Positions 9,396-36,035 of a DNA stretch of 49,103 bases are shown in pieces. Every line of letters starts with the position of its first letter. Position 1 is the stretch's first letter. The notes under the pieces are model-generated. The model was not told the DNA's origin and searched no databases. It worked only from the letters and a program-made list of their open reading frames with translations. The position numbers were made by a program, and so were the translations under genes. The DNA comes from an uncultured Bacteroidales bacterium (GTDB lineage Bacteria > Bacteroidota > Bacteroidia > Bacteroidales > Paludibacteraceae): assembly GCA_947164985.1 (NCBI GenBank), contig CAMUYI010000011.1, forward strand, positions 1-49,103, in the 5' to 3' direction.

Positions 9396-10526
9396 ATGAA
9401 AGATTTGAGATCTAAGATTTTAGATTTGAGATTTTTTATTCTCATCTCTATTCTCGGCTTTTTCGCTTCCTGCGAGAAACCGGTTGAACCCACTCCGGAT
9501 AAACCGCTGTCGCTGACGCTGTCTGCCGACTCCGTTCTGTGTCTGCCCATCTACAAAGATCTGCCTGCCCTTGATTTGGCATGGACAGCCGGCTCTAATC
9601 ACGGCACCGGCTCTGCCATCGCTTATACTATCGAGATGGACACCGTTGGAGCGAATTTCGCAGGCGGACTGAAATGGGAGATTGGGCGTACTGCTGATCG
9701 AACGTTGGTCTTCAGTCATAAGCAGTTAGCGGACACGCTCTCACTTACCTATCCGGATATACCCGAAGGACAATACACGCGCTTCGAATGGCGTGTCAAG
9801 GCAGTCGTGCTGCAAACAAAAGAAGAACAAGTTTCGCAACCGGTGGTTGTTTCAATCGCATGGCGGGCGGCTATGCTCACTGACCTCTATCTTGTCGGGG
9901 ACGCTACACCTAACGGATGGGACCTCAGCCGCGCCACACCGATGATCATGGATATGAGCAATTTCTCCGTCTTCTCCTGGACCGGACAGTTGCATAAAGG
10001 CGAATTCAAGATGCTGACCTCTACCGAAGACTGGTTGCCGTGCTATGTGCGCGACTCGACGGATGATGGCAAGATGGTCTATCGTCCAACCGAAGAGACC
10101 TATCCGGATATAAAATGGAATAGTACCAAGACCGGTAATTATCGCATCGAAGTGAACGTCGAAGCGCTGACTATCGACATCGAATACCTCGGCGGCGAAG
10201 CATATAGCCATGTCTATATGATCGGTGACGCTACGCCGGGCGGATGGAGCTGGGATAACATCACCGAACTAAACCATCCCGAATCGAATATCTTCACCTA
10301 TCAAGGAACACTCAGTGCAGGTGAACTGAAGTTCCCTACCGAACTGAAGTCCGACTGGTCGGGCGAGATGCTCTATGCGCCGGTAGCTGACTGCGCTCCT
10401 TCGGCGAGCGGCACGTTCGAGGCACGCATCGGTGGCCCCGATAACAAATGGCGCATCTCCAATCCGGGTGAGTACCAGATACGAATCAACTTTAATGACA
10501 CAACCATATCATTCGTAAAACTATGA
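9396..10526 (+). CDS. SusE-like surface glycan-binding lipoprotein
   Basis: 376 aa. Lipoprotein signal with lipobox FFASC (Cys26), then CEKPVEPTPDKP. The first domain (about 35-155; LTLSADSVLCLP...DLAWTAGS) resembles the SusE N-terminal Ig-like domain. Two C-terminal modules start with YLVGDATPNGWD (about 166) and YMIGDATPGGWSWD (about 274) and match the paired starch-binding modules of SusE/SusF. Predicted role: binding alpha-glucan at the cell surface, assisting SusCD and the GH66 enzyme. The gene begins 3 bases after susD and overlaps the next gene by 4 bases (ATGA). The codons of its signal peptide are built from a 7-bp iterated repeat (9401-9435). Confidence 0.88.
   Translation: MKDLRSKILDLRFFILISILGFFASCEKPVEPTPDKPLSLTLSADSVLCLPIYKDLPALDLAWTAGSNHGTGSAIAYTIEMDTVGANFAGGLKWEIGRTADRTLVFSHKQLADTLSLTYPDIPEGQYTRFEWRVKAVVLQTKEEQVSQPVVVSIAWRAAMLTDLYLVGDATPNGWDLSRATPMIMDMSNFSVFSWTGQLHKGEFKMLTSTEDWLPCYVRDSTDDGKMVYRPTEETYPDIKWNSTKTGNYRIEVNVEALTIDIEYLGGEAYSHVYMIGDATPGGWSWDNITELNHPESNIFTYQGTLSAGELKFPTELKSDWSGEMLYAPVADCAPSASGTFEARIGGPDNKWRISNPGEYQIRINFNDTTISFVKL
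9401..9435 (+). repeat. Iterated heptamer array A (in SusE-like signal peptide)
   Basis: Five consecutive 7-bp units: AGATTTG, AGATCTA, AGATTTT, AGATTTG, AGATTTT. They encode most of the hydrophobic signal segment of the SusE-like protein (LRSKILDLRFFI). Confidence 0.85.
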
Positions 10527-12304
10527 GAAAGCATACTATGTCTGTATTCTGTACTCTGTCAGCTATAGCGGTCTTTTGCACTTCGTGCAACCTGATTGAA
10601 CCCGAGCATGACCCGATCACCTATGGTGAGAGTTATATACCTTATATGATCAGTACGGACAAGGCGGCATATAAGCCCGGTGAAACGGTACAACTGAGCA
10701 TCAACAGTCTGCCTGAACAGGCGGCTACGGTACGTTACACCCATCTGGGCCTAGTGCTCAAAGAAGAAACCGTAAGCAGCAAGACATGGACGTGGCAACC
10801 CCCCACTGAGGATTTCCAAGGCTATATGGCGGAACTGCGCACCAAGGACTCCGTCATCGCTTCTATCGGTATTGACGTATCGTCCGAGCCTTCGCGTTTT
10901 CCGCGGAATGGTTTTCTATCCACCTACGGCAGTATGTCCGAGAGTCAAATGGCAACGGTGCTCAACGATCTGAACCGCTATCATATCAATTATGTGCAGT
11001 TCCAGGACTGGCATTGGAAACACCATCATCCGCTGGCGGGTTCTGCTACCCAACCGATGGACGTATGGACCGACATCATCAGTCGTAACTGCTACCGCAC
11101 AACGGTACAGGGTTACATCGACGGTGCGCACCAACGCGGGATGATCACACTCTTTTACAACCTCGGTTACGGATGTCTCGAAGACTTCGCCACCGATGAT
11201 GTGGATAAAGAGTGGCTCCTTTATACGGACAGACAACACACCCATCTGGATAACCACCCGCTGGGCTCGCCTTTCAAGAGCGCGATATACCTGGCGGACA
11301 TGCATAACCAAGGCTGGCGTGACTACCTACGCGCACGTAACGATGAGGTATATGCCATCTTTAATTTCGATGGCTGGCAGATAGACCAACTCGGTGTTCG
11401 TCCCACAACTGTCTATGACTATGCCGGCAACACCGTGGATGTGCAATCTGCTTTCGGTTCGTTCATCCTGAACGAGAAGACAGCACAACCCGACAAACAC
11501 ATCGTCATGAATGCCGTCGGTCAGTACGGCCAGCAGGGACAGATCGCTTCTGCGCCGGTGGACTTCTGTTATACCGAAGTGTGGGAGCATAGCAACACCG
11601 ACGGTTATGGCATCTTCTCCCGTATCATCACCGATAATGCACAATGGTCGAATGGTAAACAGACTGTGCTCGCAGCGTACCTCAATTACGACCTCGGTCA
11701 AAAGGGACGCGGCTATTTCAATACGCCGGGTATCATCATGGCTACGGCAGCAGCTTCCGCATGGGGCGGCACCATCCTTCAGATGGGCGAGCATATGCTG
11801 TGCCATGAGTATTTCCCGGATGACAATCTCTCTATGACCGGTGAACTCAAACGCGCGATGATTCGATATTATGACTTCGCCGTAGCGTATGAGAATATCC
11901 TGCGTCCGGACGCACCGGCAGCCGGCATCAACAGCGATTGGTACGGCGTGGATGTGACCAGCACCCATGACAGTTGCGTCTTCAACCAATGGGGGCCGAA
12001 AGTGAACCAGATCGCAACAGTCGGCCGTCATGTAGGTAACCGCGACATCATCCATCTGCTCTCCTATCGCCAAGCGACGCATCTCGACTGGTGTGACACG
12101 GATGGCGACCAGACGCCGCAGACGTTGCTCACCGGCATACCTGTTTCGTTTGCGGTGGATGCGCAACCGAGCCGCGTATGGGTAGCCACACCGGATTATA
12201 TGCAGGGTGCTGCGCAGGAAGTGGACTTCACCTACGATGGCGGCAAACTGTCGCTGACTCTACCTGCCCTCCAATATTGGACAATGATAGTAATTGAGAA
12301 ATAA
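10523..12304 (+). CDS. GH66-family dextranase-like lipoprotein
   Basis: Predicted endo-acting glycoside hydrolase cleaving alpha-1,6-glucan (dextran); 593 aa. Signal with lipobox FCTSC (Cys22) suggests a surface or outer-membrane lipoprotein. An N-terminal beta domain (about 35-120; [19 protein letters not shown]) precedes a TIM barrel. Motifs match GH66: the [12 protein letters not shown] region at about 160-171; [10 protein letters not shown] with the likely nucleophile D288; and FCYTEVWEH with the likely acid/base E352, both by analogy with streptococcal dextranase. A C-terminal beta domain follows. The start overlaps the SusE-like stop (ATGA), and the next gene starts 1 base after the stop, so translation is coupled. 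GH66 also contains cycloisomaltooligosaccharide glucanotransferases; the lack of a long CBM35 insertion favours dextranase. Confidence 0.9.
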
Positions 12305-12305
12305 T

Positions 12306-35760: not shown

Positions 35761-35792
35761 GAGGGCTATCATTTACTAAAAAAAATTTTCCT

Positions 35793-35999
35793 ATGACAAA
35801 GAAAGAAATCTTAAAAATCGTGATCTCCGTAGTGATTGCTGCATTGACGGCGCTGGGAGCAGCGTTCGGGCTGAGTTCGTGCAATGTGACGAGAGCGATC
35901 ACGACCAAGAGTGAGTACTGGCAACGCGGGGACAGTTCCGCCGTCATCCAGACCAAGACTATCGAGACGTATGACGCGTCGCAGAAAGGGCTTTATTAA
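35793..35999 (+). CDS. Small lipoprotein
   Basis: 68 aa. MTKKEILKIVISVVIAALTA is a signal segment with lipobox LSSC (Cys30), leaving a 39-residue polar tail (NVTRAITTKSEYWQRGDS...). Short hydrophobic proteins of this general kind are frequent in Bacteroidales between small hypothetical genes. It lies 32 bases after the preceding gene and is probably co-transcribed. The last two codons are part of a heptamer array. Function unknown. Confidence 0.75.
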   Translation: MTKKEILKIVISVVIAALTALGAAFGLSSCNVTRAITTKSEYWQRGDSSAVIQTKTIETYDASQKGLY

Positions 36000-36035
36000 A
36001 ATTAAAAATTTAGAATTAAAAATTAAAAATTAAAC
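35995..36035 (+). repeat. Iterated heptamer array H (intergenic)
   Basis: ATTAAA, ATTAAAA, ATTTAGA, ATTAAAA, ATTAAAA, ATTAAAC. It covers the stop of the small lipoprotein gene and most of the 46-base gap to the next ATG. Confidence 0.88.

Follow-up and report, generated by a model that had tools for sequence, protein, structure and literature searches.

Heptamer arrays with a steady AAT core differ between related genomes of a Paludibacteraceae genus

The closest described systems are heptamer repeats of other bacteria. The short tandemly repeated repetitive (STRR) sequences of Cyanobacteria are tandem repeats, usually of 7 bp, which are dispersed and have no known function (PMC2670836, PMC4692102). 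Long simple sequence repeats (LSSRs) have units of 5–11 nt, heptamers being the commonest, and the account given so far for 7 bp as the favoured period in many bacteria is the proposal of polymerase slippage, according to which 7 nt is a favoured slip length of the polymerase (Mrazek et al. 2007, via PMC4679880 and PMC4692102); the heptamer excess and the slippage idea are, thus, already known. Furthermore, direct repeats of TAACTGA occur in Beggiatoaceae, some Cyanobacteria and five Bacteroidetes, in some cases alongside different heptamers, and close strains of Cyanothece differ by indels of these repeats in 7-nt steps (PMC4679880). Finally, the GGGAATC repeats of Xanthomonas and the GGGGA(T/C)T repeats of Nostoc are G-rich and potentially quadruplex-forming (PMC4692102). 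In the present work we analyse 7-bp tandem arrays found in a stretch of 49,103 nucleotides (contig CAMUYI010000011.1, hereafter the window) from an uncultured Bacteroidales bacterium of the Paludibacteraceae, in the rest of its genome (G000) and in related genomes, most of which are metagenome-assembled genomes or species representatives.

We consider it about an even chance that AAT-anchored heptamer arrays arise and are overwritten through an error-prone copying that proceeds in 7-nt steps, new arrays being likely seeded also from other loci. Like the STRR sequences, these arrays are dispersed 7-bp tandem repeats, period 7 outnumbering other periods and the arrays being scattered over many loci; the preliminary description of the window had named the cyanobacterial STRR heptamers as the nearest parallel, and they do stand nearest, along with other heptamer repeats. 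The arrays differ from them in belonging to a different phylum, in being intragenic in nearly half of the cases, in having AAT as their steadiest part, and in differing between sister species. With the LSSRs they share the period-7 excess and the slippage proposed for it, whereas here the arrays are degenerate, possess a steady core, and are different or absent at most of the comparable sites of related species. The TAACTGA repeats are likewise heptamer arrays, Bacteroidetes being among the hosts of both, and the TAACTGA unit was found in none of 222 arrays. The repeats of Xanthomonas and Nostoc resemble the present ones in combining steady and variable positions, and both GGGAATC and the complement of GGGGATT contain AAT; those repeats are G-rich, whereas these are AT-rich and often coding. 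Further literature on repeats was compared in part (PMC5088731, PMC4748335). Among the matches listed for the open-licence literature, a scope outside which most subscription papers fall, neither an AAT core with turnover between sister species nor heptamers of Paludibacteraceae were found.

All nine period-7 places named in the preliminary description are present, with coordinates within a few bases, according to Tandem Repeats Finder (TRF), direct reading and a match-vector scan. At a match-vector score of at least 15 the window has six stretches of period 7 and none at periods 5, 6, 8, 9, 10 and 11; at a score of at least 9 it has ten at period 7 and 0–1 at every other period. In 60 Markov shuffles of the window, stretches scoring at least 9 numbered 0.08–0.22 per window, and the period-7 mean at a score of at least 11 was 0.00. 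In 449 kb of the same genome (the window plus 20 stretches), a score of 15 was reached by 65 stretches at period 7, against six at period 8, eight at period 11 and none at periods 5, 6, 9 and 10, one Markov control giving 0 arrays at each period. When 664 kb were considered, about a quarter of G000, the figures were 85 at period 7 against 0, 11, 1, 0, 16 and 20 at periods 6, 8, 9, 10, 11 and 14, respectively; by extrapolation, approximately 330 such period-7 arrays are expected in the whole 2.62-Mb genome. The arrays are dispersed, with 107 loci of score at least 13 in the 664 kb. The common period of 7 noted for the window is confirmed by these data, in which it exceeds periods 6, 8 and 9 as well as shuffled controls; it is shared genome-wide and also across the genus. 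Period 7 is dominant, not exclusive, smaller period-8 and period-11 families being present.

The units of the different arrays had been called unrelated, which is not borne out. Among 78 arrays with a score of at least 13, 59 have AAT on one strand of the consensus unit, the corresponding share being 22% for random genomic 7-mers and 49% for shuffled units, and ATA/TAT is avoided (4% of the consensus units vs. 41% of the shuffled ones); a circular motif model gave a log-likelihood of -399 for the real units and of -474 to -481 for three shuffled sets. In 83 arrays from several genomes of the genus, each with exactly one AAT register and phased on it, adjacent units mismatch at the A, A and T in 3.1, 3.7 and 0.9% of the cases, and at the four positions after AAT in 26.2, 7.3, 19.5 and 11.7%, respectively. 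Without such phasing, in 257 arrays from several genus genomes, the lowest mismatch among the 21 triplet types with 20 or more occurrences was that of AAT/ATT (4.3%), CAA coming next with 5.9% and the overall value being 9.1%. The array units are a related set with a steady AAT core, and arrays of one genome have units in common more often than arrays of different genomes do (see below). At the same time, 82 distinct canonical units were observed; thus, a single fixed sequence that spreads was rejected, in agreement with the preliminary description. Hairpin avoidance, an idea prompted by a structure table in PMC4679880, was also rejected as the reason for the unit grammar, since six-unit folds of the 82 units were not less structured than those of permuted units (RNA mean rank 0.514, P = 0.49; DNA 0.447, P = 0.16). 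As a separate observation, at two loci (L079, G117:C56, and L080, G067:C18) TATTG/CAATNNN arrays are clustered within 15–20 kb and draw on a small set of variable triplets.

The genus is represented by 178 genomes, 151 of which were searched with a pattern of four AAT in the AAT-N4 spacing. It was found in 150 of the 151, with loads from 0 to 818 matches; G000 has 815 overlapping matches against 204 for the pattern read backwards, and the array-poor congeners include G044 (1 match), G024 (3), G064 (3) and G089 (5). This range, together with pairs at 90–97% identity, makes the birth, overwriting and loss of arrays directly readable and allows gene content to be compared with array load. Among Bacteroidia, a five-AAT pattern occurs in 86 of 119 genomes, with 20 or more matches in 41 of them (hand count), and is patchy even inside one genus (155, 89 and 1 matches). 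Compared with the backwards control, it gave 268 vs. 11 matches in G300 and 167 vs. 13 in G197, but 137 vs. 120 in G264; part of the AAT-pattern matches arise by chance in AT-rich genomes. The nearest YchF records are labelled as uncultured Bacteroidales or Paludibacteraceae bacterium, some coming from the gut of goat, deer and buffalo.

Orthologous sites were then compared. The two arrays of the window lying in the GH97 gene (12325 and 12550) recur in none of five congeneric orthologs, which are alignable up to near the array; site 12550 is hypervariable, the five orthologs having no such array, and the ortholog of G001 has an array of a different unit, TTTTGTC, in the same signal peptide. 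At these two sites, therefore, the arrays are not fixed and alignable in relatives, and the possibility that they are ordinary ancient coding sequence was rejected for both. The genome nearest to G000 is G167 (record RUG14487), about 90% identical over 11 kb. On the G000 side, 35 arrays (score at least 14) from contig 3 and the window were considered, 20 of which are anchored on both sides in the G167 stretches compared and 15 without a two-sided anchor; on the G167 side, contigs 1, 5 and 21 provided 18 arrays, 14 anchored in G000 and four without a two-sided anchor. The resulting 26 distinct sites, with flanks 67–98% identical, were sorted by eye. Five have an identical array; in the remaining 21 cases the sister genome carries an array built from a different unit, sequence that forms no array, or nothing. 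Beside YchF, for instance, GATTGAA units in one genome face AATTGTA units in the other; at 270413 of contig 3 the two genomes differ by exactly 28 bp, with AAT at both joints; at L099 2193–2224 the position of a G000 sequence is taken by an AATCACC array just as long; and at site 180673 the period-7 array of G000 is opposite a stretch that looks, by eye, period-8. No constraint is claimed for the five identical arrays, since most of them lie within locally conserved stretches. In the same contig 3, at about 202786–202850 and 203165–203256, there are GTAAGACCG(hairpin)GTAAGACCG repeat blocks lacking in the aligned sister sequence, and similar blocks stand opposite heptamer arrays elsewhere.

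The main rival explanation is plain replication slippage, i.e., the local growth of arrays from chance duplications with 7 nt as the favoured slip, species differing since the arrays are young and mutate fast; we rate it as doubtful, though worth serious consideration. It draws support from the heptamer excess known in many bacteria (PMC4692102, PMC4679880) and predicts changes in the copy number of the same unit, whereas no plain change of this kind was seen by eye among the 26 sites. Moreover, it should leave a seed in the ortholog. A search of the ortholog segments, from which identical sites, site 12325 (flank identity 67%) and segments shorter than 12 nt were left out, comprised 23 rows corresponding to 20 sites (three scored from both sides); an unusually good match (P <= 0.06) was present in eight rows, as slippage would have it, and none above chance in the other 15. 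Units with an AAT core, unlike random genomic 7-mers, are a further point against it. Given that 21 of the 26 sites are different or absent, that no copy-number change was seen and that 15 of the 23 rows have no seed, the simple slippage of a local unit is probably insufficient on its own.

A closer pair, G128 and G157, was compared over six BLAST blocks (about 25 kb), 94.5–97.3% identical apart from a single block of 310 bp at 77%. The re-aligned blocks contain six array sites, all of which differ between the two genomes (sorted by eye). At site A, G157 has 29 bp of AGTCGAT units at AATT|AATAGG, while G128 has neither array nor seed, a difference hardly expected from plain slippage; units related to AGTCGAT are found at two other G157 loci. 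Site B differs by one extra 7-bp AATTAAC unit plus one substitution, the one +7 bp change of the kind that slippage predicts, and site C by 7 bp, with bases exchanged between units. At site D, an array of TTCAGNN units with altered NN is accompanied by a flank reading GGATAGC against the unit CTTCAGC: four neighbouring bases differ so as to match the unit, with no change in length of this block. Site E has an AATTGAT array opposite an AGTCGTT array plus hairpin repeats, and site F an AAATATC-type array opposite an unrelated sequence. Such arrays are lacking at both A and D in two outgroups (73% identical), G124 having two units, AAGGACG-AAGGACT, near A; from this, the 29-bp difference at site A is inferred to be a gain. 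Junction B was read in 14 genomes: AATTAAC arrays are present in G128 and G157, a short repeat of ATCGTAC in G124, a repeat of period 8 in G048, and next to nothing in G071. The comparison of relatives at orthologous sites, suggested in the preliminary description, thus revealed arrays that are present, absent or replaced, and the slippage invoked there has a part in it, as the single +7 bp change shows, while simple local slippage is probably not the whole origin.

The sharing of units between separate loci is a further finding that plain slippage does not predict. Identical consensus units occur in 271 of 5066 within-genome pairs (5.3%) and in 395 of 18805 between-genome pairs (2.1%); permutation of the 219 arrays (27 genomes) gave a mean of 2.8% for within-genome sharing, with 0 of 300 permutations as high as observed, and with G000 and G167 alone 1 of 300 was as high. 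Furthermore, 21-mers with at least two unit types recur at two or more loci in 69 of 1137 cases in the G000 sample (five of them at eight loci) and in 14 of 582 in G167, and in G260, which belongs to another family, the string AATAGGC-AATAAAC-AATAATC is found at four loci with different continuations. Both the within-genome sharing and the recurring strings support copying between loci.

The position of the 78 arrays was determined on our own gene calls (396 genes, 92.5% coding). Thirty-six are inside coding sequences (CDS), 26 across a gene edge (20 of them at the 3' end) and 16 intergenic, whereas random placement expects 70.7, 2.4 and 5.0, respectively, with maxima of 6 at edges and 11 intergenic in 200 simulations. 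N-terminal enrichment is absent in absolute terms, six arrays lying within codons 1–30 where 78 randomly placed ones would give 6.5. Phase variation by frameshift switching would be possible with in-frame arrays close to gene starts, and no on/off allele pair was found. Within CDS, AAT is mostly on the sense strand, the bias being weak elsewhere (by eye), and the encoded peptide goes with the AAT strand, hydrophilic when sense and hydrophobic when antisense. The strand bias was rejected as proof of an RNA-level function, since it follows the encoded peptide and is weak outside CDS.

One might suppose that the arrays are selected RNA or DNA binding sites for a regulator reading AAT every 7 nt, as MacGregor proposed for the TAACTGA repeats preceding start codons (PMC4679880). 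A steady AAT among variable bases, the strong enrichment at gene edges and the five arrays identical between sister species would fit such a role; nevertheless, we regard it as unlikely. The TAACTGA repeats have one fixed unit and are mostly intergenic, a few nt upstream of the start codon, whereas the present arrays have many units and are often coding or at 3' ends, as the above counts indicate, the same array is absent in the sister at 21 of 26 sites, and array-poor congeners such as the four named above do occur.

According to the mechanism that we propose, slippage together with template switching in a 7-nt register would generate and overwrite the arrays, copying might be re-primed at short AAT homology, units could move between loci and seed new arrays, and selection for the reading frame and for tolerated sites would decide which arrays survive. 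Such a process would account for the steady core and the varying rest, the unit exchanges, the equal-length overwriting, and the placement at tolerated sites. More tentatively, and well short of an even chance, an active rewriting in place might operate in Bacteroidia, printing AAT-anchored 7-mer arrays, often length-neutral, by copying from array to array, so that peptides derived from repeats would keep taking the place of linkers, signal peptides and gene ends; if true, new linkers and signal peptides of gut Bacteroidia would have a source that has been overlooked. That the writer is a reverse transcriptase (RT) or an end-joining pathway appears highly improbable. The seedless 29-bp difference could be end repair, and a single RT open frame (591 aa) is present in G000; yet Ku was found in 0 of 25 genomes searched (G000 and 24 relatives), and RVT_1 was not found in G003, G005 and G006, despite 271, 160 and 442 pattern matches, respectively (these genomes are 75–84% complete, which leaves the absence uncertain). 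Ku-dependent non-homologous end joining and an RT, the latter not being consistently found, were both rejected as array writers.

Several points weigh against copying in 7-nt steps between arrays. AAT is absent from 19 of the 78 consensus units, and the period-8 and period-11 families of G000 (664 kb) indicate that 7 is not the sole step. Given the seeds at 8 of 23 rows, about a third of the sites could be due to local slippage, with no copying between loci. Shared strings such as AATTAAG-AATTAAA-AATTAAA could recur as one mutationally common variant, and the dialects of species might stem from mutation bias rather than from copying. In the closer pair, the arrays at site D are also unequal in length by 1 bp, the gap lying in another part of the array, and gain and loss are polarised by distant outgroups alone, in one pair of such closeness. 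Lastly, 15 of the 107 array loci of G000 (12 pairs) have similar 120-bp flanks, and some of the G260 loci with shared strings lie in longer dispersed repeats, sharing 150–240 bp of flank at 81–84%. These flanks, together with the hairpin-type repeats in some of the same loops of the sister genome, would be expected if the arrays were not independent but part of larger mobile or composite repeats; this is very unlikely, in that 92 of the 107 G000 loci have no shared flank at E <= 1e-3 and the GH97 orthologs align up to near the array.

The arrays of the window and their host genes, called in this analysis and annotated by Pfam, are reported in Table 1. Of the nine places named beforehand, six score at least 15, one 12 and two 9–10; the stretches at 25608–25627 and 33220–33238 are weak, moderately above chance, and the other seven places are clear. 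Three arrays (9401, 12325 and 25608) are in N-terminal hydrophobic stretches resembling signal peptides, four (12550, 24751, 30316 and 33125) encode hydrophilic linkers, and two (33220 and 35998) are over stop codons. Their neighbourhood is a SusC/SusD-type cluster with SusE/F, GH66 and GH97, followed by a regulator and two long proteins, both of which finish in a tail IRNGQL(F/L)I(L/V)(R/K)DGK-YNA.

Table 1. Period-7 stretches of the window and examples of the period-8 and period-11 families
Feature	Position	Strand	Score	Host gene and encoded product
AGATTTG-type array (AAATCTC/AAATCTA on - strand)	9401–9434	-	12	Just within start of SusE/F-like gene 9396–10526 (SusF_SusE, SusE); first N-terminal residues, MKDLRSKILDLRFF
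TCTTTAT array (AATAAAG on - strand)	12325–12354	-	17	Hydrophobic N-terminal stretch of GH97 protein; signal peptide by appearance
AATCACC/AATGACC array	12550–12584	+	19	Hydrophilic loop/linker of GH97 protein (SPITNDQSP)
AATTCTG array (AATTCAG on sense - strand)	24751–24784	-	21	Within regulator gene 23304–25649 (Reg_prop, Y_Y_Y, HTH_AraC); hydrophilic linker ENSDFRIQNSEF (NSDFRIQNSEF)
GTGAAAA short stretch	25608–25627	-	10, weak	FTFHLS, part of N-terminal hydrophobic stretch of regulator 23304–25649
AAATCTG/AAATCAT array	30316–30347	+	16	Hydrophilic linker VNLKSEIINHK immediately before C-terminal tail YIRNGQLLIVKDGKTYNAQG of 25814–30421; GDSL lipase and pectinesterase domains upstream
AATCACC/AATGACC array	33125–33155	+	18	Hydrophilic linker ITNDQSPITNK immediately before C-terminal tail VIRNGQLFILRDGKIYNAMG of 30441–33239
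AAATAGT/AAATGGT imperfect array	33220–33256	+	TRF 67% matches; 33220–33238 score 9	Spans stop codon of 30441–33239
AATTAAA array	35998–36034	.	18	Overlaps stop codon of ORF 35793–35999; most of gap preceding ORF 36046
TCTGTAT/TCTGTAC stretch (tenth, weak, absent from earlier list)	10541–10559	+	9	Near start of GH66 gene (Glyco_hydro_66)
Period-8 family (examples, among others)	L025:5876–5908, L199:12607–12644, L210:9442–9475			
Period-11 family (examples)	L021:18063–18122, L026:4737–4788, L200:2296–2360, L210:8790–8852, L100:9764–9826			

Regarding the other periods, the period-8 arrays form a palindrome-rich family (CGTCATGA / TCGAGATG / CGTTATAA), with 11 members in G000 (664 kb) and 12 in G167 (559 kb), and the period-11 family (ACCTACTAATC / TAGTAGGTGAT), found in several genomes of the genus, has a steady core with few variable positions. 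Three other repeats were observed in the window. A 207-bp tandem repeat (5.3 copies, 94% matches) occupies 47997–49103, within a very large open frame extending beyond the end of the window. The segment 22818–22987 is a dispersed repeat: G168 has copies of 162–171 bp at 91–92%, while shorter copies are numerous in G167 and G169. Finally, a short motif upstream of the regulator gene, at 25663–25709, recurs many times across related genomes and may be promoter-like.

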